This document shows, piece after piece, positions 1,448 through 28,172 of a stretch of 32,220 nt of DNA. The position numbers and the translations under genes were made by a program. The DNA is taken from contig SLSJ01000158.1 in the NCBI GenBank assembly GCA_007130525.1, positions 1 through 32,220 of the forward strand, read 5' to 3'. The notes beneath the pieces were generated by a model, which saw only the letters and a list, made by a program, of their open reading frames with translations, did not search any database and had not been told where the DNA came from. Positions within the stretch are counted from its first letter, which is position 1. The number at the start of each line of letters is the position of its first letter. The DNA comes from Ectothiorhodospiraceae bacterium. Lineage in GTDB: Bacteria > Pseudomonadota > Gammaproteobacteria > Nitrococcales > Aquisalimonadaceae.

Positions 1448-4400
1448 TCACGATTGTTCAACCTCCGCATACTCCCGGCGCCGCCACAGCCAGAACAGCA
1501 CCGGCACGAGCAGCAGCGAGACCAGCGGAGCGGTGATCATGCCGCCCACCATGGGTGCCGCAATACGCTGCATGGCTTCGGCACCAAGACCGTCGGCAAC
1601 GAGCAGCGGACTTAGCCCCAGAACCACAGTCAGGGCGGTCATGGTCAGGGGCCGAACCCGCATCACCGCGCCTTCTATGATGGCCGCCCGCAACTCCGCC
1701 CACGATGCCGGTTGACGTCTGTCCACTGCCTCGCGGATGTACATCAGCATGACCACCGCGAATTCTGCAGCCAGGCCAAGCAGTAGAGCGAAGCCCGCGA
1801 ACACCGCGACCGAGACGTTGAGCCCCATGAGGTAGAGGATCCAGATGCCGCCGACTGCCGCGAAGGACAGGGACCCCATCAGCATCAGAGCCTCGGCGCC
1901 GCTGCGGAAGCACAAGTAGAGCAGCAGGAAGATCAGCACCAGTGTGACCGGCACCACCAGGGAAAGCCGCTCGCGCGCACGTTCCAGGTGTTCATACTGC
2001 CCGGCCCACGCGATGGAGTACCCCGCCGGCAGGTCTACTTGCGCGCGCACCGCGTCGCGGGCGGCCGCCACATAGGAACCCAGATCACGGCCGCGCACGT
2101 CTACCGTCACCAGGCCGTTGAGTCTTGCATTCTCGGTGCGGATCATGGCCGGGCCGTCGGTGATCTCCACCCGTGCCAGCGCCTCCAGCGGCAGGTGGTT
2201 CCCGTTCGCCGTGACCACCGGAAGCTCGCGCAGGCGTTCGATCGAGCCGCGCCAGTCCTGCGGATAGCGCAGGTTGACAGGATAACGCTCAAGGCCTTCG
2301 ACGGTATCCGTCACATCCATGCCGCCCACCGCCGTCTGGATCACCGACTGCAGGTCGGTGACGGTGACACCATGACGGGCGGCCTGCCGTCGATCCACTT
2401 CGATCTCGATGTAGCGCCCTGTGCCGGTGCGCTCGGCATAGGCCGAGGCGGTACCGGGCAACTCGCCCAGCACCCGCTCCACGTCACGGCCGATGCGCTC
2501 GATCTCGTGCAGGTCCGGGCCGGCGATCTTCACGCCCACCGCTGAGCGTACCCCGGTGGAAAGCATGTCGATGCGGGTCTTGATGGGTGGCACCCAGACG
2601 TTGGAGGCACCGGGAATCTGCACCACCTCGTCCAGTTCCCGGATCAGGTCGTCCTTGGTCAGGCCCTCACGCCACTGGTCCCGGGGCTTGAACCGGATCA
2701 CCGTCTCCAGCATGCCGATGGGTGCCGGGTCCGTTGCGGTTTCCGCTCGGCCTGCCTTGCCGAACACCTGGTCCACCTCGGGTACGGTCTTGATCAGCCG
2801 GTTGGTCTGTTGCAGGAACTCACGGACCTTGCCGATGGATGCTCCGGGGTTGAGCGTGGGCATGTACATCAGATCGCCCTCGTCCATGTCGGGCATGAAC
2901 TCGGTGCCGAGTCGGCTGGCAGGGTAGACCATGCTGGCTGCAAGCAGCAGTGCCAGCAGCAGCGTTACCCAGGGGTACCGGAGCAGGCCTTCCAGGGCGG
3001 GGCGATAGAGGGCGATCAGGCTGCGGCTGACCGGATGTGCGGATTCGGGGCGGATGCGGCCGCGTACCAGATAGCCCATCAGCACCGGTACCAGGGTGAT
3101 ACCGAGCCCGGCGGCCGCCGCCATGGCGTAGGCGCCGGTGAACGCCAGCGGGTGGAACAGTCGACCCTCCTGTCCTTCGAGGGTGAACAACGGCAGGAAG
3201 CTCACCACGATAATGAGCAGTGCGAAGAAAAGCGGCCGTCCCGTCTCCTTCGCCGCGATGGCAACCGTGGTCCAGCGGTCCTCTCCGGGGGGCGCGCGCT
3301 CCAGCCGCTTGTGCAGGTTTTCCACCATCACGATCGCGGCGTCCACCATGGCGCCGATGGTGACCGCTATCCCGCCCAGGGACATGATGTTGGCATTGAT
3401 TCCCTGCTGCTGCATGATCAGCAGCGCCGCCATGATGCCGATTGGCAGACTGACGATGGCCACCAGCGCCGAGCGCAGGTGCAGCAGGAACACGGCGCAT
3501 ACCAGTGCGATGATCAGAAACTCCTGTACCAGCTTTTCGGACAGATGGCGCACGGAACCCTGGATCAGTTCGGAACGGTCGTAGGTCTCCACGACCTCCA
3601 CTCCGTCCGGAAGACCGGGCTGGAGTTCTTCCAGGCGTTGCTTCACCCGTTCAATGGTGGCGAGCGCGTTCTCGCCGTGGCGCATGACTACGAAGCCGCC
3701 CACCACCTCGCCTTCGCCATCCAGTTCGGCGATGCCGCGTCGCGCCCTCGGGCCCGTGCGTACTTCGGCGACGTCCTCCAGCAGTACAGGGGTTCCGTCT
3801 CCGGCACGACCCACAGGCACCAGGCGCAGGTCCTCGATTCCCTTCAGAAAGCCCAGGGACCACACCATGTACTCGGCCTCGGCCATCTCCACCACTGAGC
3901 CGCCGGCCTCACGGTTGGCTGCCCGGATCGACTGGCGGATTTCATCCAGGGTGAGGGCGTAGGCACGGGCCCGGTTGGGGTCAAGCAGCACCTGGTATTG
4001 GCGCACCATGCCGCCCAGGGGAGCAACCTCGGCAACCCCTTCCACCGACTGCAGTTCGAAGCGGAGGAACCAGTCCTGTAGGGAACGCAGTTGTGCCAGG
4101 TCATGGTTGCCGGTGTGGTCCACCAGCACATACTGGTAGACCCAGCCAACGCCGGTGGCGTCCGGTCCCAGCGCAGGCCGCGCTTCCGGCGGCAGATCCG
4201 GGGCAACCTGGCTCAGGTACTCCAGTACCCGGGCACGGGCCCAGTACGGGTCGGTGCCGTCCTCGAACAGCACATAGACAAAGGAGTCACCGAACATGGA
4301 GAAGCCACGCACGTCCCGGGCCCTGGGAACCGAGAGCAACGCGGTGGTCAACGGGTAGGTTACCTGGTCCTCCACCACCTGGGGCGCCTGACCGGCGAAA

Positions 4401-4555
4401 CCGGTATGCACGATGACCTGGACGTCGGAAAGATCGGGGATCGCATCCAGCGGCGTCTGCCGCAGGCTGAACACGCCCCAGAGCACGAACACCCCCGTGA
4501 GCAGAATCACCAGCAGGCGATTGTCCAGCGACCACTGCACAATGCGGTCAATCAT
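1448..4555 (-). CDS. cusA: HME-RND Cu(I)/Ag(I) efflux pump CusA-like (module 1)
   Basis: RND protein of about 1035 aa; GAMVDAAIVMVEN proton-relay motif; Met positions matching the CusA Met triad in EGDLMYMP, APIGMLET and TRIDMLSTG; start at MIDRIVQW (4555). Confidence 0.95.
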   Translation of the reverse strand: MIDRIVQWSLDNRLLVILLTGVFVLWGVFSLRQTPLDAIPDLSDVQVIVHTGFAGQAPQVVEDQVTYPLTTALLSVPRARDVRGFSMFGDSFVYVLFEDGTDPYWARARVLEYLSQVAPDLPPEARPALGPDATGVGWVYQYVLVDHTGNHDLAQLRSLQDWFLRFELQSVEGVAEVAPLGGMVRQYQVLLDPNRARAYALTLDEIRQSIRAANREAGGSVVEMAEAEYMVWSLGFLKGIEDLRLVPVGRAGDGTPVLLEDVAEVRTGPRARRGIAELDGEGEVVGGFVVMRHGENALATIERVKQRLEELQPGLPDGVEVVETYDRSELIQGSVRHLSEKLVQEFLIIALVCAVFLLHLRSALVAIVSLPIGIMAALLIMQQQGINANIMSLGGIAVTIGAMVDAAIVMVENLHKRLERAPPGEDRWTTVAIAAKETGRPLFFALLIIVVSFLPLFTLEGQEGRLFHPLAFTGAYAMAAAAGLGITLVPVLMGYLVRGRIRPESAHPVSRSLIALYRPALEGLLRYPWVTLLLALLLAASMVYPASRLGTEFMPDMDEGDLMYMPTLNPGASIGKVREFLQQTNRLIKTVPEVDQVFGKAGRAETATDPAPIGMLETVIRFKPRDQWREGLTKDDLIRELDEVVQIPGASNVWVPPIKTRIDMLSTGVRSAVGVKIAGPDLHEIERIGRDVERVLGELPGTASAYAERTGTGRYIEIEVDRRQAARHGVTVTDLQSVIQTAVGGMDVTDTVEGLERYPVNLRYPQDWRGSIERLRELPVVTANGNHLPLEALARVEITDGPAMIRTENARLNGLVTVDVRGRDLGSYVAAARDAVRAQVDLPAGYSIAWAGQYEHLERARERLSLVVPVTLVLIFLLLYLCFRSGAEALMLMGSLSFAAVGGIWILYLMGLNVSVAVFAGFALLLGLAAEFAVVMLMYIREAVDRRQPASWAELRAAIIEGAVMRVRPLTMTALTVVLGLSPLLVADGLGAEAMQRIAAPMVGGMITAPLVSLLLVPVLFWLWRRREYAEVEQS

Positions 4556-6278
4556 GGTCCATCTCCCTCTGGTCATCCAGCGGTTCGATGGCGGTGACCT
4601 CGTAACCGAATGTGTCGGCCTCCCGGGCCCGGAAACGGATTTTCATATGCGGCTGGACCTTGTCGAGATCCACCCCCTCGGCGACCAGGAAGTTCATGGT
4701 CATACCCGGCATGTCCAGGTCCGGGATCGGACCGTGGGAGATGTTTATCTCCCGGTTCTCCCGATCGACGCTGTTGACCACCGCCTCAGCCCAGTCATCC
4801 GACCCCGAACCTTTCCCGTTGCCGTTGACGGCTTCGATACCCGTAACCCGGTACACGCCGGGTTCCGGTTCCGTAATCCGGAAACGCACTTCTGCTCCGG
4901 GCTCGATGCCCTCTAGATCAAGGTCCGCCGCGAGTTCGAAGTCCATGGTCATTTCCGGCCAGTCCAGTTCCGGGATCGGTTCATGGGAGAGGTTGATGGT
5001 TTCGGCATCCGCATCTACCGCATTCACCACGCCCCTTGACGTGATTTCCTGCCTTTCATCGTCCGACTCCACCGCTTCCATGCGGCCGAGTTCGGCCACG
5101 ACATCGGACTCCGAGTCGATCAGGAACTGACCGGATGTCACTACCCGCTCGCCCTCTTCCAGACCATCCAGGATCTCCAGCCGGTCGCCGGCATTTTGGC
5201 CCACACGGATCTCCCGGGCCTGAAAGCGGCCTTTCCCCCTGTATACGATCACCCGGGTCTGATGACCGGTGCGGATAACCGCCTCGGCCGGCACGTGCAC
5301 CACGTCGTTGATGGGTTCCGCGTCCAGACGTACGGCCGCATACATGCCCGGCTTCAGCTGTTCATCGGGGTTGTCCAGCGCCAGTCGGGCCCGCACTGTC
5401 CGGGTCGGTGACGCCAGCGAGGGGTAGATGTAGTCGATGCGCCCCTGCAGGCTTTCACCCGGATGGTAGGGCAGCAGAACCTCCGCTGCCTGACCGACGG
5501 TGACGCCGTTTGCCTGCTGTTCGAAGAGATCGGCCAGTACCCAGACGCGGGATAGATCGGCGATGGTCATGATGGAGTCCGCGGGCCTGACGAACATGCC
5601 ATGGCGGACGTGCAGTTCCTGCACCACGCCAGCGTGTCTGGCACGGACCGAGATCGTCTGTCGTACCTCGCCGCTGCGCTCCACCCCGGCTATCTCGTCG
5701 GGGCCCATGCCCAGTGCACGCAGCCTTTGTCGTGCCGATTCGACGCCGCCGCCACGCCGAACGGCCTGCAGGAACTCCTCCTGGGCATTGACTAGCACGG
5801 GTGAGTACAACCGGAACAGCAGTTGTCCGGCCTCCACGCGCTCGCCGGTTGTGCGCACGCGCAGTTCTTCGATCCAGCCGTCGACACGCAGGTGGACGTG
5901 CGACAGACCGGCCTCGTCGTAGTCCACGAATCCGAAGGCGTCCACCTGCCGGACAAGCTTGCCGCGTTCGGCAGGTGCGGTGCGCAGGTTCATGTTCTGC
6001 AGGACTGCCGTCCGGATACGAACCGTCCCGGGTTCTTCCTCTGCATCATCGTCGTCGGCATAGACCGGGATGTAATCCATGCCCATATGATCCTGGCGGG
6101 GCTCCGGCGAGGTGATGGAGGAGTCCATGGGGTTGCGGTAATAGAGGATCTCGCGGTCGTTGTCCGAAGCCTCGGCCTGTTCGTGGTCCATATCGTGGTG
6201 CAGATACCACCAGGTTGCGCCGCTGCCGGTCACTGCGCCGAGGAGCAGCAGGATCAGCGTTATCAATGGTGTCTTCAT
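4548..6278 (-). CDS. cusB: CusB-like periplasmic adaptor with two C-terminal CusF-like domains (module 1)
   Basis: 576 aa; YYRNPMDSSITSPEPRQDHMGMDYIPVY metal-binding domain, membrane-fusion core, then two copies of an IxHxPIPxLxxPxMTM CusF-type domain. Confidence 0.93.
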   Translation of the reverse strand: MKTPLITLILLLLGAVTGSGATWWYLHHDMDHEQAEASDNDREILYYRNPMDSSITSPEPRQDHMGMDYIPVYADDDDAEEEPGTVRIRTAVLQNMNLRTAPAERGKLVRQVDAFGFVDYDEAGLSHVHLRVDGWIEELRVRTTGERVEAGQLLFRLYSPVLVNAQEEFLQAVRRGGGVESARQRLRALGMGPDEIAGVERSGEVRQTISVRARHAGVVQELHVRHGMFVRPADSIMTIADLSRVWVLADLFEQQANGVTVGQAAEVLLPYHPGESLQGRIDYIYPSLASPTRTVRARLALDNPDEQLKPGMYAAVRLDAEPINDVVHVPAEAVIRTGHQTRVIVYRGKGRFQAREIRVGQNAGDRLEILDGLEEGERVVTSGQFLIDSESDVVAELGRMEAVESDDERQEITSRGVVNAVDADAETINLSHEPIPELDWPEMTMDFELAADLDLEGIEPGAEVRFRITEPEPGVYRVTGIEAVNGNGKGSGSDDWAEAVVNSVDRENREINISHGPIPDLDMPGMTMNFLVAEGVDLDKVQPHMKIRFRAREADTFGYEVTAIEPLDDQREMDHD

Positions 6279-7525
6279 TGTTCCTCTCCCAGCAGGTACA
6301 GGAGTTCCGCCTGCGTCTGGCGCCGGTCGCTGAACACCCGCAGGCTGTCAAGACGTGTCTGCAGGTTCATGACCCGGGCCCTGATCAGGTCGGAGAAGGC
6401 GATGGTGCCGGCGCGGTAGGCCTGGTCGGCCGCCTCCGCGTTGGCGCGGGCGGATTCGAGCAGGCGATCACGGAAACGTGTGTCGCGCTCGTCGAGCCGG
6501 TGCAGCCGGCTGAGGATGGCCGCGTGCCGTGCGTCCAGATCCCGCGCCTGTTCCGTGAGAGCCAGCATGGCGGCGTCCCGTTGATGCTGGCTTGCAGCCA
6601 CTTCGCTGTCCTGGCGTTGCCGACTGAACAGAGGCAGATCCACCATCAACATGCCGGACAATCGGTCTACGCCGCCCTGAGCACGGGCGCCGGGCGCGCG
6701 GCCGTAGCTGAGTTGCAGACTCCACTCGGCTCTGTAGCCCTGACGGGCGAGCTCGATGCCCTGGCGGCCGTCCTCCACCGCCGCCTCTTCAGCCCGGAGC
6801 AGGGGATGCGCCCGGATACCGTCCTCGTGCGGCAAGGGGAGTTCCGGGAACGTCCCGGTCAGCGGCCTGGCGGCGACCTCGTGGCCGACCCAGCGAGCGA
6901 GTTCCGCCTCGGCCGCCGATTCGGCCGCATGCACCGTGCTGATGCGGTCTTCCAGGCGCTCGAGTTCAAGCTCCACCTCCAGTACGGCCTGTTGCGTGCC
7001 ACGCCCGGCAGCGAATTCCCGTTCGGTGATCTCCAGCAGCTCCTGGAATAGCTCACGTGTCTCCGCCAGTACCGCAAGCGCCCTTCGCTGGTAAAGCAGT
7101 TCCAGGTAGGCCTGGCGCACACCGCGCAGGGCCGTGCGTCCCGCGTCACGCGCCCGGGCCAGTTCGGCCGTGGCCCGGGTGCGCTCGCGGGCGCTGGAAA
7201 GCGCCCGGGTATCGCCGCGTGGAAAGGTCTGGCGCAGACCGATGGTGATCTGGGTCATTGGTGTCCGGTCGAGTCGGAATCCGTCGTCGATGGGCAGGTT
7301 CATGGCCTCGCCGATCAACACGGGGTTGGGTAGACTGCGGGCCGCCTCGGCCGAGTTTTCCCGTGCTGCGGCCAGTTCGTGATAACGGGCGGTGGTCGGG
7401 TCTCGCTCCAGCGCGAGATGTTCGGCCTGTTTAATGGACAACGGCGCCGAGGTCAGCTTGGCGGGACTGGCCAGCAGCAGTATCAGGAGCAGGCAGAGCC
7501 ACCCCCGGGTCGGGTTCGGAGACAT
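6275..7525 (-). CDS. cusC: CusC-like outer-membrane efflux protein (TolC superfamily, module 1)
   Basis: 416 aa with signal peptide and heptad-rich OEP repeats; 4-bp overlap with cusB. Confidence 0.9.
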   Translation of the reverse strand: MSPNPTRGWLCLLLILLLASPAKLTSAPLSIKQAEHLALERDPTTARYHELAAARENSAEAARSLPNPVLIGEAMNLPIDDGFRLDRTPMTQITIGLRQTFPRGDTRALSSARERTRATAELARARDAGRTALRGVRQAYLELLYQRRALAVLAETRELFQELLEITEREFAAGRGTQQAVLEVELELERLEDRISTVHAAESAAEAELARWVGHEVAARPLTGTFPELPLPHEDGIRAHPLLRAEEAAVEDGRQGIELARQGYRAEWSLQLSYGRAPGARAQGGVDRLSGMLMVDLPLFSRQRQDSEVAASQHQRDAAMLALTEQARDLDARHAAILSRLHRLDERDTRFRDRLLESARANAEAADQAYRAGTIAFSDLIRARVMNLQTRLDSLRVFSDRRQTQAELLYLLGEEQ

Positions 7526-7623: not shown

Positions 7624-7950
7624 TCAGAGGAAGAAGACGCGTTTGGGAGGTTGCAAGTCGGGGGAGGGGTGTGCCGGCTTTGCCGGGAAGCCATGGTGGT
7701 TCGGAGAATGACCGATAATCAGGGGCTCGCTGTCCGTGCGGGCAGACACGCCGGCTATACAACCTATGCAGTCGGGGCAGACGCCGGATTCGGCGTTGGT
7801 GTGACAATCCGAGCCAGTGCCATTCGTCGCCTCGGCTACCTCGGAGCCGACGAACTCTGGGTTCTGGTAGTCGCCCATGACGTGCGATGGCGCAACAAAG
7901 AACGCTGCAATCAGGACAAGACAGAGCAGCAGATAGGATGGCGAGCGCAT
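7624..7950 (-). CDS. Small secreted Cys-rich protein heading cus operon 1 (CzcI/DUF2946-like position)
   Basis: 108 aa; signal-peptide-like N-terminus, CHTNAESGVCPDCIGC cluster, PPK near C-terminus; same place and layout as the ORF at 27668. Confidence 0.65.
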   Translation of the reverse strand: MRSPSYLLLCLVLIAAFFVAPSHVMGDYQNPEFVGSEVAEATNGTGSDCHTNAESGVCPDCIGCIAGVSARTDSEPLIIGHSPNHHGFPAKPAHPSPDLQPPKRVFFL

Positions 7951-18538: not shown

Positions 18539-21013
18539 ATGGCCAGCAATGACGTGCGGTTGACTGTCCCTGGCATGGGAAGCGATCACTGTGCCGGCAT
18601 CATCGCCTCATCACTTCGGCGTCTGGACGGGGTGCTCGACGTGCAGACGAATATTGCAGCGCATCGCGTTCAGGTCACTTACGAGCCCGGCAAGCTGGAC
18701 GATGGGGGTATCCGTCGTGCTGTGGAAAGGGCGGGCTATGACGTCGCGGCCATATCCGGCGGCGGCGTGCAGCGTGTGCAGTTGACGGTGCCCGGCATGG
18801 GCTCCGACCACTGCGCGGGAATCATCCGCAGCACGCTGGAGCGGCTGGACGGTATCGAAGGGATCGAGACCAATATCGCCAACCACCACGTCACGGTAGC
18901 CGTGGCCGCCGGCGGCCCGGATACCGAGGTACTGCGGCAGGCGGTGGAGAAGGCCGGCTACGACGTGGCGACGGTCAGCACGCAGGGAGCAGCGGATGCG
19001 GGCTCCGAAGCGGAGATCGAGGAAGCCTACCTGAGCCAGGCCTGGAAGCGGCTGTGGATCGCGGCCATTCCCACCACGCTGATCATGATCCTGATGATGC
19101 CGCACATGTTCTGGCAGCCCATCCCGGGGTACCTGGCGATCATTGCGGTCCTCGCCTTTCCCGTGGTGTTCCTCTATGGCGGCGCCGCCACGCACAAGGC
19201 CTCCTGGCGGTCGCTGACCAATCGCAACGCCAACATGGATGTGCTGATATCGATGGGCAGTCTGCCGCCCTACCTGATCGGGCTCGTGGGCTTCCTCTAC
19301 CCCATGACCTCGTTCATCGAGATGGCCGCCACCATCATGACTTTCCACCTGCTCGGCCGTTATCTGGAAAACAAGGCCAAGGGACGGGCCTCCCAGGCCA
19401 TTCGCCGGCTACTGACCATGGGGGCGAAGACCGCACGCGTTGAGCGCGACGGCGAGGAAGTGGAAGTGGCGGTGAAGGAACTGCAGCCGGGCGACATCAT
19501 GGTGGTGCGCCCGGGAGACAAGATCCCCACCGATGGCGAAGTGGTGGAGGGCGAAAGCCACCTGGACGAATCCATCGCCACCGGCGAATCCATACCCGTC
19601 TACAAGAGCGCGGGTGACGCTGTCATCGGCGCAACCATCAACAAGGAGGGCAGGCTGCGCGTCAAGGCAACGCGGGTCGGCGGCGATACCTTCCTGTCCC
19701 AGGTCATCCGCCTGGTGGAACAGGCCCAGGGCTCCCGGGTGCCGATCCAGGAGTTCGCCGATCGCATGACAGGCCGTTTCGTGCCACTGGTCATCCTGAT
19801 CGCAATGGCCAGCCTGGTAGCCTGGTTGCTGATCCCGGAGACCCTGCGCCCGATCCTGGACTGGGGCGCCGGTTTCCTGCCATGGGTCAATCCGGAGGCG
19901 GCCGTGCCGGTGCTGGCCATACTCGCTGCGGTCGCCGTGCTGGTCATCGCATGCCCCTGTGCGCTTGGGCTGGCCACACCAACGGCGTTGATGGTGGGTT
20001 CGGGTCTTGGGGCCGAACGCGGCATTCTGATTCGCTCCGGCGAGGCCATCCAGACCTTCAAGGACGTCAAGGTCATGGTCCTGGACAAGACGGGCACCAT
20101 TACCCGCGGTGAGCCGAAACTGACCGAGGTCGTAGTAGCCGCTGATACCGACGAGAACGCTCTGCTCACCCTTGCGGCCTCGGTGGAGAATGCCTCGGAG
20201 CATCCCATTGCCCGCGCCATTGTCGACGGCGCCCGCGAGCGAGGCGTGCAGCCGGGCGAGGTCAGCGAATTTCGCTCCACCGGCGCGCGGGGCGTTTCCG
20301 GCAGGGTGGGCGGCGAAAGCGTGCTGATCGGCAACCGCCGCCTGCTGGAGGAGGAGGGTGTTTCCGGTCTCGGTGCGCTGGACGACGCGCTCCAGGACCT
20401 GGAGATGCAGGGCCGCACCGCGGTCATCGTCGCCTCCGATGGTCAGGCGCGCGGAATCGTGGCCGTCGCCGACACCATCAAGGATGAATCCGTCGGCGCC
20501 ATTCGCGGCATGCATGAACTGGGCTTGTACGTAGTGATGGTCACCGGCGATAACGAGCGCGCCGCGCGCGCTGTTGCCGATGAGGTAGGTATTGACGAGG
20601 TTCAGGCCGGTGTGCTGCCGGAGGGAAAGGTGGATGCCATCCGCGCGCTGCAGGAGCGCTACGGTGATCACGTGGCCATGGTGGGCGACGGCATCAACGA
20701 CGCCCCCGCGCTCAAGCAGGCCAACGTGGGCATTGCCATCGGCGCCGGTGCCGATGTGGCCATCGAGGCGGCGGACGTGACCCTGGTGCGGGGGGAACTG
20801 ACCGGCGTGGTCGAGTCCATGCGGCTTTCCAGGGCCACCTTCCGCAAGATCGTGCAGAACCTGCTCTGGGCCAGCGCCTATAACGTCGCGGCAATCCCCA
20901 TCGCCGCCGTCGGCCTGCTGCACCCGATGATCGGTGTGATCGCCATGACCGTGAGTTCGCTGTCGGTCATAGGCAACTCGATCCTGCTCAAGCGGACCCG
21001 CCTGGCATCCTGA
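18539..21013 (+). CDS. copA: Cu(I)-exporting P1B-type ATPase with two non-canonical HMA domains
   Basis: 824 aa; CPCALGLATP, DKTGTITRGEP, GDGINDAPAL, HP motif SEHPIA, MTVSSLSVIGNS; two HMA-like repeats with GMGSDHC. Confidence 0.95.
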   Translation: MASNDVRLTVPGMGSDHCAGIIASSLRRLDGVLDVQTNIAAHRVQVTYEPGKLDDGGIRRAVERAGYDVAAISGGGVQRVQLTVPGMGSDHCAGIIRSTLERLDGIEGIETNIANHHVTVAVAAGGPDTEVLRQAVEKAGYDVATVSTQGAADAGSEAEIEEAYLSQAWKRLWIAAIPTTLIMILMMPHMFWQPIPGYLAIIAVLAFPVVFLYGGAATHKASWRSLTNRNANMDVLISMGSLPPYLIGLVGFLYPMTSFIEMAATIMTFHLLGRYLENKAKGRASQAIRRLLTMGAKTARVERDGEEVEVAVKELQPGDIMVVRPGDKIPTDGEVVEGESHLDESIATGESIPVYKSAGDAVIGATINKEGRLRVKATRVGGDTFLSQVIRLVEQAQGSRVPIQEFADRMTGRFVPLVILIAMASLVAWLLIPETLRPILDWGAGFLPWVNPEAAVPVLAILAAVAVLVIACPCALGLATPTALMVGSGLGAERGILIRSGEAIQTFKDVKVMVLDKTGTITRGEPKLTEVVVAADTDENALLTLAASVENASEHPIARAIVDGARERGVQPGEVSEFRSTGARGVSGRVGGESVLIGNRRLLEEEGVSGLGALDDALQDLEMQGRTAVIVASDGQARGIVAVADTIKDESVGAIRGMHELGLYVVMVTGDNERAARAVADEVGIDEVQAGVLPEGKVDAIRALQERYGDHVAMVGDGINDAPALKQANVGIAIGAGADVAIEAADVTLVRGELTGVVESMRLSRATFRKIVQNLLWASAYNVAAIPIAAVGLLHPMIGVIAMTVSSLSVIGNSILLKRTRLAS

Positions 21014-21252: not shown

Positions 21253-21618
21253 TCAGTCCAGTGCGCGGATTTCCGTAATCTCGTAGTCCGTTTCCCCCGT
21301 CTGCTCCAGGGTGAAGGCCACCGGGTCGCCGGGTTCGAGCTCACTGGCAAGCTCCGGGTCCCGCAGCGGCAGGTCCATCGTCATGGCCGGCCACCGCAGG
21401 TCCGGGATGGGGTCGTGGCTCAGGGTTACATGCCTGCCATCGGCGTCAATCGCCTCAAGCACCCCCTCGGCTTCCGCGGTGACACGATCAGAGTCGCCAC
21501 CGTGGTGCCGGTCATGAGCCAGCACCGGCACCGCGGCCATGGCCAGGCCGGTTGCCAGGACGAGCGATTTCAAAAGAACTCGAAACAATATGCCTGATGT
21601 CGAATGAAGCGTTTTCAT
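21253..21618 (-). CDS. cusF: CusF-like periplasmic Cu/Ag-binding protein (free-standing)
   Basis: 121 aa with signal peptide; LSHDPIPDLRWPAMTMDL retains the His, Trp, Met, Met set. Confidence 0.9.
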   Translation of the reverse strand: MKTLHSTSGILFRVLLKSLVLATGLAMAAVPVLAHDRHHGGDSDRVTAEAEGVLEAIDADGRHVTLSHDPIPDLRWPAMTMDLPLRDPELASELEPGDPVAFTLEQTGETDYEITEIRALD

Positions 21619-24600
21619 GGTGATACTCCCTGGTTTGCTGTATCGATTTGCTCGTCAGTCGTGGATAGACGGTTGCGCTGCCAGAGCCAGTAGAGGACCG
21701 GGATGAGCAGCAGCGAAACGAGGGGGGCGGTGATCATGCCGCCGATTACCGGGGCCGCGATCCGCTGCATGGCTTCCGAGCCCAGACCGCCGCCGAGCAG
21801 CAACGGCGACAGGCCCAGGACGACCGTGAGCGAGGTCATGGCCTTGGGCCGGACCCGCATCACCGCGCCCTCGATGATCGCCGCCTCCAGCTCCGCCCGT
21901 GTACCGGGCTGCCGTTGCTCGACCGCATTGCGAACATACATGAGCATCACCACGGCGAACTCGGTGGCCAGCCCGATGAGCAGAATGAAGCCGGCGGCCA
22001 CGGCCACGGAGACGTCATAGCCCAGCAAGAAGATCAGCCAGACGCCCCCCACTGCCGCGAAAGGCAGCGCACCCATGAGCATCAGTGCCTCGGCGGAGCT
22101 GCGGAAACACAGGTAGAGCAGCAGGAAGATGAGCACGATTGTTACCGGGACCACGTAGCTCAGCCGCTCCTGTGCCCGCTCCATGTGCTCGTACTGGCCC
22201 GACCAGGTGATGGAATAGCCGGGTAGCAGCTCCACCTGGTCGGTCACGGCCTGCCGCGCTTCCGCCACGTAGGAGCCGAGATCCCGGTCGCGGATGTCCA
22301 CCACCACCCAGCCGTTCAGGCGGGCATTCTCGGTGCGGATCATGGACGGCCCGTCGACAATGTCCACGCGGGCCAGGGATTCCAGCGGCAGGTTGGCGCC
22401 GTTGGGGGTGACCAGCGGCAGTTCGCGAAGCTGCTCGACGGAGTTCCGCCAGTCCTGCGGGTAACGCAGATTGACGGGGTACCGTTCCAGGCCTTCCACG
22501 GTCTCGGTCACGTTCATGCCGCCCACCGCGGTCTGGATGACCGACTGCAGTGCCTCGACGCTGACGCCATGGCGCGCCGCGCGCGCGCGGTTTACTTCCA
22601 CTTCGATGTAGCGGCCCGTCGCGGTGCGGTCGGCATAGGCGGAGGCGGTACCGGGAACCGTTTCCAGCACCTTTTCAACCTGCCGGCCGATGCGCTCGAT
22701 TCCCTCCAGGTCCGGGCCGGCGATCTTGACACCCACCGGCGACCGGATGCCGGTGGCCAACATGTCGATACGGGTCTTGATGGGTGGCACCCAGACGTTG
22801 GCCACGCCGGGAAACCGTACGGTCTCGTCCAGCTCCCGGATGATGTCGGCCTTGGTGATGCCGTCACGCCATTGATCCCGGGGCTTGAACCGGATCACCG
22901 TCTCGAGCATGCCCAGAGGCGCCGGATCGGTGGCGGTTTCGGCCCGGCCCGCCTTGCCGAAAACCCGGTCCACCTCAGGTACGGTCTTGATCAGGCGGTC
23001 AGTCTGCTGCAGAAACTCGCGGACCTTGCCGATGGAGGCACCCGGTTCCAGCGAGGGCATGTACATGAGATCCCCTTCGTCCAGTTCGGGCATGAACTCC
23101 GTTCCCAGCCGTGAACCCGGTACAATCATGCTCGCCGCCAACAGCGCCGCCACGGCGACGGTCGTCCACGGATACCGCAGCAGCGAGCTCAGCACCGGGC
23201 GATAGCCCGCGATCAGGAGGCGGCTGATGGGATGTCCGGCCTCGGGGCGGATGCGGCCGCGCACGAGATAGCCCATCAGCACCGGCACCAGGGTAATGCC
23301 GAGCCCGGCGGCGGCGGCCATGGCGTACGTGCCGGTGAAGGCCAGGGGCTTGAACAGACGCCCTTCCTGGCCTTCAAGGGCGAACAGCGGCAGGAAGCTC
23401 ACCACGATGACGAGCAGGGCGAAGAACAGGGGCCGCCCGGTTTCCTTTGCCGCCATGGAAACCGTGGTCCACCGATCCTCGCCCGGGAGCGCCCGCTCCA
23501 GGCGCTTGTGCAGGTTCTCGACCATTACGATGGCGGCATCCACCATGGCGCCGATGGTGACCGCTATCCCGCCCAGGGACATGATGTTGGCATTGATGCC
23601 CTGCTGCTGCATGATCAGCAGCGCCGCCATGATACCGATCGGCAGACTGACGATTGCGACCAGCGCCGAGCGCAGGTGCAACAGGAACACCAGGGAGACG
23701 GCGGCGATTATCAGGAACTCCTGGACCAGCTTGACGGAAAGATTTCTGACCGACTCCTGAATCAGCACGGAACGGTCGTAGGTTTCCACGAGCTCCACAC
23801 CGTCCGGCAGGCCGCGCTCCAGTTCCGCCAGGCGTTCCTTTACCCGGTTGATGGTGGCCAGCGCGTTCTCGCCGTGGCGCATGACCACGAAGCCGCCCAC
23901 CACCTCGCCCTCGCCGTCGAGTTCGGCGATGCCGCGCCGGGCCTGCGGGCCGATGCGGATCTCGGCCACGTCTTCGAGCAGTACGGGCGTGCCGTCCTCG
24001 CCGCTGCCAACGGGTATGTGGGCGAGGTCGGAAATGCCCGTGAGATAGCCGCGCGAGCGCACCATGTGCTCGGCCTCGGCCATTTCCACCACCGAGCCGC
24101 CCGCTTCCCGGTTGCCGTCCTGAATCGCCTTGCGGATCTGTGCCTGGGTCAGGCCGTAGGCGCGGGCCCGGTTGGGGTCCAGCACCACCTGGTACTGCCG
24201 CACCATGCCGCCGAGAGTGGCGACTTCGGCAACGCCCTCCACCGACTGCAGTTCGAACCGAAGGAACCAGTCCTGCAGGGCGCGCAGCTCCGAGAGGTCG
24301 TGCGCGCCGGTACGGTCAACCAGCGCGTACTGGTAGACCCAGCCAACGCCGGTGGCGTCCGGGCCGAGGGCGGGGCGGGCGCTGTCCGGAAGGTTGGGTG
24401 CCACCTGGCTCAGGTACTCCAGCACCCGGGAGCGAGCCCAGTACGGGTCGGTGCCGTCCTCGAAAAGCACGTACACATAGGAGTCGCCGAACATGGAGAA
24501 GCCGCGCACGTCCGCCGCTCCGGGCACTGCCAGCATGGCCGTCGTCAGGGGGTAGGTGACCTGGTCCTCCACCACCTGGGGCGCCTGTCCGGCGTAGGAG

Positions 24601-24752
24601 GTGTGGATGATGACCTGCACGTCCGACAGATCCGGAATGGCGTCCAGGGGAGTCTGCCGTAACGAGAAGATGCCCCATGCGATGAACACGCCAGTGAGCA
24701 GCAGCACCAGCAGGCGGTTGTCCAGGGACCACTGAATGATTCGCTCGATCAT
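21615..24752 (-). CDS. cusA: HME-RND Cu(I)/Ag(I) efflux pump CusA-like (module 2)
   Basis: 1045 aa; same motifs as module 1 CusA (EGDLMYMP, APLGMLET, TRIDMLATG); ATGA overlap with cusF. Confidence 0.95.
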   Translation of the reverse strand: MIERIIQWSLDNRLLVLLLTGVFIAWGIFSLRQTPLDAIPDLSDVQVIIHTSYAGQAPQVVEDQVTYPLTTAMLAVPGAADVRGFSMFGDSYVYVLFEDGTDPYWARSRVLEYLSQVAPNLPDSARPALGPDATGVGWVYQYALVDRTGAHDLSELRALQDWFLRFELQSVEGVAEVATLGGMVRQYQVVLDPNRARAYGLTQAQIRKAIQDGNREAGGSVVEMAEAEHMVRSRGYLTGISDLAHIPVGSGEDGTPVLLEDVAEIRIGPQARRGIAELDGEGEVVGGFVVMRHGENALATINRVKERLAELERGLPDGVELVETYDRSVLIQESVRNLSVKLVQEFLIIAAVSLVFLLHLRSALVAIVSLPIGIMAALLIMQQQGINANIMSLGGIAVTIGAMVDAAIVMVENLHKRLERALPGEDRWTTVSMAAKETGRPLFFALLVIVVSFLPLFALEGQEGRLFKPLAFTGTYAMAAAAGLGITLVPVLMGYLVRGRIRPEAGHPISRLLIAGYRPVLSSLLRYPWTTVAVAALLAASMIVPGSRLGTEFMPELDEGDLMYMPSLEPGASIGKVREFLQQTDRLIKTVPEVDRVFGKAGRAETATDPAPLGMLETVIRFKPRDQWRDGITKADIIRELDETVRFPGVANVWVPPIKTRIDMLATGIRSPVGVKIAGPDLEGIERIGRQVEKVLETVPGTASAYADRTATGRYIEVEVNRARAARHGVSVEALQSVIQTAVGGMNVTETVEGLERYPVNLRYPQDWRNSVEQLRELPLVTPNGANLPLESLARVDIVDGPSMIRTENARLNGWVVVDIRDRDLGSYVAEARQAVTDQVELLPGYSITWSGQYEHMERAQERLSYVVPVTIVLIFLLLYLCFRSSAEALMLMGALPFAAVGGVWLIFLLGYDVSVAVAAGFILLIGLATEFAVVMLMYVRNAVEQRQPGTRAELEAAIIEGAVMRVRPKAMTSLTVVLGLSPLLLGGGLGSEAMQRIAAPVIGGMITAPLVSLLLIPVLYWLWQRNRLSTTDEQIDTANQGVSP

Positions 24753-24765
24753 GGGATGCCTCCGT

Positions 24766-26241
24766 TCAGTGGTCGTGCCCCAGGGGCTCGATGGCGGTAA
24801 GCTCGAACACGTATTCCTCGCGTTCGCGGATACGGATACGGACGCGGTCGCCCTTCGACAGCCCTTCCAGGCTCACCCCGTCGGCAACGGTGAAGTCCAT
24901 GGTCATCGCCGGCCAGCCCAGCGCCGGAATCGGTTCGTGGTCCAGGTTCACTTCGCGCGCGTCCCGGTCCACGCTGTTGATCCGGCCTTCGGCCTCCACG
25001 TCCTCGTCGCCGTCAACCTGCTCGGTGGATGGATGCTCGCCATTGGCCATGCGCGCCAGTTCCACCGTCACGGAAGACTCGGAATCGATCAGGAACTGAC
25101 CCGAGGTGACGATGAGGTCCCCTTCCTCCAGACCTTCCAGCACTTCCATTCGGTCACCGATCCGTCGTCCCATGCGTACCTCGCGCGCCTGGAAGCGGCC
25201 ATCGCCGAGGGCGGCTATGACCCGATCCTGGTGGCCCGTCCGGATCACCGCCTCGGCGGGAACGTGGGTCACGTCCCCGGTGGCCTCACCCTCGATGTGA
25301 ACATCGGCCCACATACCAGGCTTCAGACGTCCGTCCGGGTTATCGAAACTCAGGCGCGCCCGTATCGTGCGCGTGGGAGACGCCAGGGTGGGGTAGATGT
25401 AACCAACGCGACCGTTGAGCGTTTCACCGGCGCGAAACGGTAGGTGGACCTCCGCCGCCAGGCCTTCCCGGACAGCATCCGACTGGTGTTCGAAAAGGTC
25501 GGCAATGACCCAGATACGCGACAGGTCGGCGATGCTCATCACCTCGGTGCCGGGCTGTACGTACATCCCCTCCGCCACGTTAAGGCTCTGGACAATGCCA
25601 TCCTGGGCGGCCCGTACCGGCACCAGTTGCAGTACCTCGCCGCGTTCTTCCAGCGTGCGGATTGCGCTATCGTCCATGCCCAGCGCGCGCAGGCGTTGCC
25701 GCGCGGGATTCAGGTCGGACCCGCGCCGCATGATCTGCAGCAGCTCCTCCTGCGCATTGACCAGCACCGGCGAGTAAAGCCGGAAGAGTACCTGTCCCGC
25801 CTCTACACGTTCCCCCGTGGTCCGAACCTGAAGGTCCTCGATCCAGCCTTCGGTGCGGAGATGGACATGGGACTGGGTGGCCTCGTCCACTTCCACGAAA
25901 CCGACCGTGCGGATCCCGCGGGCAAGGCTGCCGCGTTCCACCGTTGCCGTGCGAACCCCCATGTTCTGAATCACCGCGGGGGTGATGCGGACAATTTCCG
26001 GGTCGACGTCATCGTTGTCCGCGTCGGCATAGACGGGGATGTAATCCATGCCCATCTCGTCCTTGCGCGGTTCGTCGGACCGGATGGACGGGTTGTGTGG
26101 ATGCTGGTAGTACAGCACCTCGCGCTCCGCGCGCGCGTCGGTGCCGAGGGACAGGGGGATTCCGCCCTGGTAGAGTGCCAGCGCGCCGACGCCGGCACCG
26201 GCACCCACGAGAAGAAGAACGACAGTTGCGAGGGGCGTCAT
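24766..26241 (-). CDS. cusB: CusB-like adaptor with one C-terminal CusF-like domain (module 2)
   Basis: 491 aa; DEMGMDYIPVYAD, adaptor core, C-terminal LDHEPIPALGWPAMTMDF. Confidence 0.93.
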   Translation of the reverse strand: MTPLATVVLLLVGAGAGVGALALYQGGIPLSLGTDARAEREVLYYQHPHNPSIRSDEPRKDEMGMDYIPVYADADNDDVDPEIVRITPAVIQNMGVRTATVERGSLARGIRTVGFVEVDEATQSHVHLRTEGWIEDLQVRTTGERVEAGQVLFRLYSPVLVNAQEELLQIMRRGSDLNPARQRLRALGMDDSAIRTLEERGEVLQLVPVRAAQDGIVQSLNVAEGMYVQPGTEVMSIADLSRIWVIADLFEHQSDAVREGLAAEVHLPFRAGETLNGRVGYIYPTLASPTRTIRARLSFDNPDGRLKPGMWADVHIEGEATGDVTHVPAEAVIRTGHQDRVIAALGDGRFQAREVRMGRRIGDRMEVLEGLEEGDLIVTSGQFLIDSESSVTVELARMANGEHPSTEQVDGDEDVEAEGRINSVDRDAREVNLDHEPIPALGWPAMTMDFTVADGVSLEGLSKGDRVRIRIREREEYVFELTAIEPLGHDH

Positions 26242-27488
26242 GGCTGGTTTTCTCCGAGCAGGTAAAGCAACTGGGCCTGGGCCAGGCGCCGATCCGTGGA
26301 AACGCGGGCGGCGTCAAGGTGTGTATCCAGGTGGGTAATGCGGGCACGCATCAATGCGGTGAATTCGATCATGCCGGCGCGGTATGCCTCTTCCGCCGCT
26401 TCGGCGTTTTCCTCGGCGGCAGCGAGCAGGCGCTCCCGGAAGCGTGCCTCCCGCTCCCGTAGCCGGTACCAGCGGGCCTGGGTCGACGCCAGTCCCTGCT
26501 GCAATGCGCGATGCTGTTCCTCCCGCGCATACTCCGCGGCGTGCCTTTCCCGGCGGCTGGCGGCCACGTCCCGGTCCTGCCGGTTCCGGGTGAACAACGG
26601 CAGATCCAGCATGACCATGGCGGACAATCGGTCCGGGTTATCCTCGCCGGACGCCGTCGCGCGTCCGTAGGTGACTTCGAGGGACCACTCGGGCCGGTAA
26701 CCTTGCCGCGCGAGTTCAATGCTGCGCTGTCCGGCCGTGACCGTCATATCCTCCGCCACCAGTAGCGGGTGAGCGTCAATGGCCTCGCCGTTTGCGGAGG
26801 AAATCTCCGGGATCGCTTCGGGCAGGGGTCTGTCTGCCGCCCGGGGTCCCACCCAGCGGGCCAGGTCCGCCGTGGCGGCGGCGGCTTCCGCGCGGGCCGC
26901 GGAGAGTCGGTCTTCCAGCCGGTCCAGCTCCAGTTCCGCCTGGATAACGTCCTGTCGTGAGACGCGTCCGCTTGCAAACTCCCACTCGGCCACCTCCAGC
27001 AGATCCTGGAAATGCCGGCGATTGTCTTCCAGCACGGCTACCGCCTGACGCCTGTAGTGCAGTTCCAGGTAGGCTGCGCGTACCCCGTTCAGCGTGGCCC
27101 GCTCGGCCGCATCGGCGCGGGCGTGTTCGGCGGCGGCGCGCAGTTCTTCCCTGCTCCGGGAGAGCGCGCGGGTCTGCCCGCGCGGAAAGGCCTGGCGGAC
27201 GCCGACGCGAAGTTGCGTCATGGGGTCTTCATCGAGACGCGGTCGATCTGCAGGGACGTCCATCAACTCGGTGATCAGCATGGGATCCGGGAATGCACCG
27301 GCCGATACGGCCGATTCCTGCCGAGCCGCCGCCAGTTCCTGGTAACGACCTACCGTGGGTTCATCCTGTAAGGCCAGTTGCTCGGCGTCCTCGAGGGTCA
27401 GTACCGGCCCGGCCGCGACCAGAGGCGCAGCCGTCAGCAATGCGGCGGCCAGCAGACCGTGCAGCTTGCCAAAGGTTGGAAACGGCAT
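26238..27488 (-). CDS. cusC: CusC-like outer-membrane efflux protein (module 2)
   Basis: OEP family; start MPFPTFGKLHGLLAAALL at 27488; ATGA overlap with cusB. Confidence 0.9.
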   Translation of the reverse strand: MPFPTFGKLHGLLAAALLTAAPLVAAGPVLTLEDAEQLALQDEPTVGRYQELAAARQESAVSAGAFPDPMLITELMDVPADRPRLDEDPMTQLRVGVRQAFPRGQTRALSRSREELRAAAEHARADAAERATLNGVRAAYLELHYRRQAVAVLEDNRRHFQDLLEVAEWEFASGRVSRQDVIQAELELDRLEDRLSAARAEAAAATADLARWVGPRAADRPLPEAIPEISSANGEAIDAHPLLVAEDMTVTAGQRSIELARQGYRPEWSLEVTYGRATASGEDNPDRLSAMVMLDLPLFTRNRQDRDVAASRRERHAAEYAREEQHRALQQGLASTQARWYRLREREARFRERLLAAAEENAEAAEEAYRAGMIEFTALMRARITHLDTHLDAARVSTDRRLAQAQLLYLLGENQP

Positions 27489-27667
27489 GTGCGTGTTCCT
27501 CGCATGGGGATCGAATGACGATCCCGGTAGACCATGGTGGTCGACCGTGTTCCGCCCCGGCTGCATGCCACGGTGACTGGTGGAATGGGCGGACTATCCG
27601 GAGTGCGTGAAACCATCCGGATGACACGGAAACGACCGACCTCAGGCGGCATCAGGCCGCCGGCCGA

Positions 27668-28027
27668 TCAGGCGAGGGTGGGTTTCGGAGGGCGTGGTTC
27701 CCGGGAAGGCACCCGGGACAAGGTAATCACGATTCCGGCAGTCGGCGCCGGGTCTGGCGGCATCGCGACCGAACCGGAGCGATGGGTGAGTGCTGATACG
27801 CACATGGAACAGGTGGGGCAGTCATACGGTGCCACGGAGCCACTACGCTCCCCGCAGCCCGCGCCGGTGCTCGCATCGGCAAGGGCCCCCGGCTCCGCGT
27901 CCAACCCGACGGCCAGGTGGTCGTCATGGGAGGCCATACCCGCATTGGCCGCCACCTGATGCATGGGCAGCAGCAGCAGTGAGGCGATCACCAGCAGGAC
28001 AACGGCAATGGCGCGTGGAGTCGACAT
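27668..28027 (-). CDS. Small secreted Cys-rich protein heading cus operon 2
   Basis: 119 aa from MSTPRAIAVVLLVIASLLLL; CGERSGSVAPYDCPTCSMC cluster; PPKPTLA C-terminus; parallels ORF 7624..7950. Confidence 0.65.
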   Translation of the reverse strand: MSTPRAIAVVLLVIASLLLLPMHQVAANAGMASHDDHLAVGLDAEPGALADASTGAGCGERSGSVAPYDCPTCSMCVSALTHRSGSVAMPPDPAPTAGIVITLSRVPSREPRPPKPTLA

Positions 28028-28061
28028 GTGTGCATCATCCCGGTCTGGCGGGAAACCGGCA

Positions 28062-28075
28062 TTGACCTCGATCAA
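28062..28075. promoter_or_regulatory. FNR/Anr-family-type box upstream of cus operon 2
   Basis: TTGACCTCGATCAA (reverse TTGATCGAGGTCAA), 34 bp upstream of the start codon at 28027. Confidence 0.55.
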
Positions 28076-28172
28076 GTAAGGATGCACCAGGGCCAATGCA
28101 TTGTCGAATCGGCGTCCTCACAAGCGTTGGAGTGGCCGCCTTCATGGCGCGGTGGGGGCAACGTCCACCGTT

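Follow-up and report, generated by a model that had tools for sequence, protein, structure and literature searches.

A CusB-type pump adaptor with two fused CusF domains, one of them with methionine in place of the capping tryptophan

CusF of Escherichia coli is a free, single-domain protein of the PF11604 fold (PDB 1ZEQ, 2VB2, 2QCP), in which the ligands His36, Met47 and Met49 are accompanied by a tryptophan, Trp44, that caps the metal through a cation-pi contact. This cap must flip open before metal can be exchanged with the adaptor CusB (PMC6235853). Replacing the tryptophan by methionine increases the affinity for Cu(I), and the role of the residue is not clear (reviewed in PMC7558416, section 6.1); a W44A variant is available as PDB 3E6Z. 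SilF (PDB 8BBZ, 8BHU), a periplasmic Cu(I)/Ag(I) chaperone that also belongs to PF11604, is likewise a free protein of the Trp type, and its tryptophan has been termed strictly conserved (PMC10656224). CusF-like domains are also found at the C-terminus of pump adaptors, as in SilB of Cupriavidus metallidurans (PDB 2L55) and in CusB-CusF fusions from 22 gammaproteobacteria (PMC3548706). SilB and the fusions described to date contain one CusF domain, and no description of tandem CusF fusions on CusB was found in the literature searched.

The window analysed here (the whole stretch of DNA, 32,220 nucleotides) contains a minus-strand pump operon with overlapping cusC, cusB-F-F and cusA genes (Table 1). 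Its adaptor resembles SilB in having CusF at its C-terminus, but carries two such domains (D1 and D2) with unlike metal-site types. The protein is a CusB adaptor as judged by its HlyD_D23 barrel-sandwich, its alpha-hairpin and the adjacent cusA and cusC genes; Pfam also matches the CusB hairpin and, in two stretches, CusF_Ec (3.8e-50), and the match to the NCBIfam CusB subfamily (7.6e-63) falls below that model's cut-off. The neighbouring CusA can be aligned over its full length with E. coli CusA (PDB 3k07), and the alignment of all three triad methionines (YMP, M-ET, IDML) assigns it to the Cu(I)/Ag(I) class of HME-RND pumps.

Table 1. Features of the two Cus loci discussed in the text, in window coordinates
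Feature	Position	Strand	Evidence or remark
CusA RND pump, overlaps 3' end of cusB-F-F	1448..4576	-	TIGR00914, 1166 bits
CusB-type membrane fusion protein with two C-terminal CusF domains	4548..6278	-	576 aa; HlyD_D23, 4.5e-76
CusF domain 2 (D2), Met-type	4581..4796	-	PF11604, 86.0 bits
D2 Met-Thr-Met codons, equivalents of CusF Met47 (4703-4701) and Met49 (4697-4695)	4695..4703	-	alignment
D2 Met codon (ATG) at CusF Trp44 position, residue 523	4710..4712	-	sequence; kept in G001
D2 His ligand codon, residue 515, equivalent of CusF His36	4734..4736	-	alignment
Short linker, D1 to D2	4797..4832	-	about 18% identity between two congeners
CusF domain 1 (D1), Trp-type	4833..5045	-	PF11604, 89.9 bits
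D1 ligand codons	His 4985-4983, Trp 4961-4959, Met 4952-4950, Met 4946-4944	-	sequence
CusC-type outer membrane efflux protein, first gene of operon	6275..7525	-	PF02321, 3.5e-33
Free CusF of second Cus operon, Trp type	21253..21618	-	PF11604, 89.4 bits
CusB2, one fused CusF domain, Trp type	24766..26241	-	PF11604, 95.4 bits

Both Cus operons in the window are complete; that at 1448-7525 has the tandem fused CusF and lacks a free CusF, and that at 21253-27566 has a single fused domain together with a free CusF. Just upstream of each cusC gene lies a small ORF (7624-7950 and 27668-28096, both on the minus strand) whose start resembles a signal sequence and which contains a run rich in Cys (CPDCIGC and CPTCSMC, respectively); neither has any Pfam match. 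A CopA-type copper ATPase is encoded at 18539-21013 on the plus strand, and both of its N-terminal heavy-metal domains read GMGSDHC, so that the usual CxxC has Ser instead of its first Cys.

D1 and D2 both lie far above the PF11604 cut-off of 27 bits, and D2 aligns with the solved structure of E. coli CusF (PDB 2qcp). Read on the minus strand, residue 440 of D1 is a tryptophan (TGG; context SHEPIPELDWPEMTMDF) and its counterpart in D2, residue 523, is a methionine (context SHGPIPDLDMPGMTMNF), as the sequence-only reading of this DNA had reported, and its statement that CusB2 and the free CusF have tryptophan at this position is borne out by their sites, LGWPAMTM and LRWPAMTM. The equivalents of His36, Met47 and Met49 are intact in D2, so that the ligand sets are His/Trp/Met/Met in D1 and His/Met/Met/Met in D2. 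Exactly four PF11604 domains in the genome score above threshold, all inside the window; D2 is the one with Met, and the remaining three have Trp. The free CusF also matches the NCBIfam CusF model (2.3e-14), under its cut-off. D2 is best read as a putative His-Met3 site for Cu(I)/Ag(I). With the other ligands all kept and a Trp site in tandem with it, D2 does appear to be the natural counterpart of the engineered Trp44-to-Met variant that the same reading had proposed.

When the tandem region and PF11604 were searched against 54 genomes of the order, a tandem CusB-F-F was found in only one other genome, that of a congener (G001), with an adaptor 73% identical over the protein. Its domains read LDWPEMTMDF (D1) and LDMAAMTMNF (D2): the suggested check for methionine in relatives thus finds it in D2 of the sole relative that carries the tandem, and its presence in an independent congener rules out a sequencing error or drift as the source of the residue. 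His/Met/Met/Met is retained in the D2 of G001, although the two residues after the methionine have changed from Pro-Gly to Ala-Ala. Between the congeners D1 is 79% identical, D2 73% (85% in its site loop) and the linker, which is free to change, only about 18%; dN/dS, estimated over aligned codons in a single comparison with dS near saturation, is about 0.14 for D2 and 0.07 for D1, against 0.16 for the whole protein. The methionine of D2 is maintained by selection in G001, as judged from two genomes and one comparison. The other close CusF domains of the order all have tryptophan, and methionine at the Trp44 position recurs there in three remote PF11604 members from two other genera (G007, G008).

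How unusual such a site is in the family was assessed with CusF domains taken from an even sampling of genomes across the class and across the phylum (Pseudomonadota), supplemented with loci from closer relatives; the figures that follow are numbers of sequences, not of independent events. At the Trp44 column 118 free CusF comprise 65 Trp, 52 Met and 1 Leu (about 44% Met), and 80 single fused domains comprise 71 Trp, 8 Met and 1 Lys. Methionine is therefore the second main type of the CusF family at this position, and the description of the tryptophan as strictly conserved is not borne out by this wider survey. The Trp44 cap does not define the family, since it is absent from so many free members as well as from D2, and His-Met3 can serve in nature as a CusF site, because such sites are widespread and nearly all keep the histidine and both other methionines. 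Named examples of the Met type include copper-binding proteins of Rhizobium etli and of a Comamonadaceae plasmid. The sequence-only reading had treated the methionine as exceptional, which is true when close relatives are compared but not for the family as a whole, and the rarity of the Trp-to-Met change that it implied is contradicted by the counts; D2 is one of very many natural W44M counterparts.

The two types differ in the genomic company they keep. RND pump genes lie within about 2 kb of 46 of the 65 Trp-type and 13 of the 52 Met-type free CusF, and genes for multicopper oxidases, cupredoxins or DUF411 proteins lie within the same distance of 4/65 and 31/52, respectively (L323 and L324 being examples of the Met type; Fisher p 1.7e-10 for oxidase-group neighbours, kinship ignored). 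This association is real in the sample, yet it tracks deep clades and is not demonstrably independent of descent. The neighbours of Met-type proteins being mostly oxidase genes, D2, with a Met-type site arising inside a pump adaptor, is unusual in that respect. The types also differ beside the metal site, with Gly following the histidine in 83% of Met-type and 33% of Trp-type domains, and Gly two residues past the Met/Trp position in 54% and 9%. A general pairing within operons of a Trp-type fused domain with a Met-type free CusF was considered and rejected, the partners of single-Trp fusions being 8 Met and 9 Trp.

If tryptophan and methionine were equivalent caps, exchanged neutrally, the methionine of D2 would be one switch among many and without consequence for the pump. 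The abundance of methionine in the survey and the approximately 12 Trp/Met changes needed on the tree of all domains (6 among free CusF) lend themselves to this explanation, but those changes are far fewer than in shuffled data (mean above 50), so strongly are the types clustered, and the gene neighbourhoods of the types differ, albeit with descent ignored in that comparison. Moreover, G001 retains the methionine although the two residues next to it have been replaced, and the engineered Trp-to-Met exchange does alter affinity (PMC7558416). We therefore regard neutral interchange as unlikely, though it is the strongest of the competing explanations.

Adaptors with several CusF domains were sought in named genomes, in a scan aimed at tandem fusions. 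CusB proteins of one alphaproteobacterial clade (the Roseobacter group, Roseibium and some Rhodospirillales) contain four or five CusF domains, arranged Trp-Trp-Met-Met(-Met) (L177, L178, L180-L182, L186, L188, L189, L192, L195, L196, L200, L201, L203, L204 and L325), with one deviating site in occasional arrays, such as a Thr in the fourth domain of L196. An adaptor of this kind is also found on a Roseobacter litoralis plasmid, and in WP_013959883.1 of R. litoralis (L325) the Trp domains come first and the Met domains last, as they do here. These arrays have more domains than the tandem adaptor and belong to a separate adaptor lineage, and their first domain lacks the Met49 equivalent, Ser (WPAMTS) or Thr standing where the second Met ligand should be; their free CusF partners are of the Trp type. 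Many Alteromonadales and their relatives have a Trp domain first and, in the second domain, Arg/Arg/Ala at the His/Trp/first Met positions (L036, L043, L125-L129, L132, L135-L138 and others); this distal domain (NISRGPIEKWDRPAATMDF) is conserved and non-canonical. A Met-type domain ahead of a Trp-type one was not seen in any array of the scan. The Trp-then-Met order is unproven as a rule, because the adaptor-core tree requires only two or three independent origins of it, which are too few.

The ligand-less distal domains of the Alteromonadales raise the possibility that D2, too, is a spare domain that has been relaxed and drifting since a second domain was gained. Across 89 distinct multi-domain adaptors the canonical His/Trp/Met/Met set is present in 73 first domains but only 16 last domains, the distal domains being non-canonical in the other 73, and D2 evolves slightly faster than D1, both as such decay would predict. 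D2 has nevertheless kept all its other ligands, its dN/dS is low and its site loop well preserved between the congeners, and the change from TGG to ATG took two base changes that landed precisely on a ligand residue. Decay of D2 is accordingly improbable.

On a tree of the membrane fusion protein core, the two tandem adaptors are sisters (support 99) and are nested among single-Trp fusions of their own genus, family and order, in a clade with support 98; the second CusF domain was therefore gained within the genus. On a tree of the CusF domains, D2 clusters with the CusF domains of single-domain fusions, namely CusB2 and those of G005, G011 and G020 (90/89, and 93/92 with the site loop omitted), and D1 falls outside, while in an AU test a topology with D1 and D2 as sisters is not rejected (p 0.22). 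Moderate evidence thus suggests that D2 is the older fused domain, inherited and switched from Trp to Met, and that D1 is the newcomer. By descent D2 stands with Trp-type fused domains and apart from the Met-type subgroup linked to multicopper oxidases. A free Met-type CusF as the source of D2, with no Trp-to-Met change at all, is very improbable: the Gly after the histidine of D2 and the Gly two past its methionine are the commonest Met-type residues at those positions, but neither the trees nor the nearest-neighbour scores support such a derivation, the closest relatives of D2 over the whole domain being fused domains of the Trp type from the same family even when the site loop is left out.

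On balance we favour the explanation that the protein is the adaptor of a CusCBA-type Cu(I)/Ag(I) pump bearing two tethered copper-chaperone domains, of which D2 would be the tighter, His-Met3 site. D2 would bind Cu(I), and Ag(I), through a fourth, thioether ligand, giving four-coordinate His-Met3. Because the Trp-to-Met exchange raises the affinity of CusF (PMC7558416), an affinity difference between the domains is a reasonable prediction, and by analogy with the engineered protein D2 probably binds Cu(I)/Ag(I) more tightly than D1. A division of labour may be envisaged, in which metal exchange would take place at D1 under a movable Trp cap, and D2, as the terminal domain of the adaptor, would capture or hold metal and hand it on either to D1 or straight to the Met sites of CusB and CusA. 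Tethering would stand in for the soluble CusF that operon 1448-7525 lacks, the second domain having been gained in the genus and the Trp-to-Met switch having presumably fallen in the older of the two. Transfer from a tighter distal site to D1 would be uphill, so a simple one-way relay is not implied by the affinities; a tighter end site fits better with capture or buffering than with a simple downhill relay.

A broader reading can be offered only tentatively: CusF may fall into two classes, Trp-capped domains that feed RND pumps and Met-capped (His-Met3) domains that hold metal or are linked to oxidases, with some adaptors forming a graded, tethered relay. The same tentative reading would place Trp sites closest to the pump and Met sites at the greatest distance from it, here and, independently, in the alphaproteobacteria.

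What is notable in the present adaptor is the ordered pairing of Trp then Met on one pump protein, found separately in the alphaproteobacteria. With Trp-capped and Met-capped copies on one chain, the role of the CusF tryptophan becomes testable in place. Close to half of the sampled free CusF lack the cap, and the two types occur in different genomic settings. The occurrence of two to five CusF domains on CusB adaptors suggests that these pumps are supplied with metal in a more elaborate way than by a single soluble chaperone.
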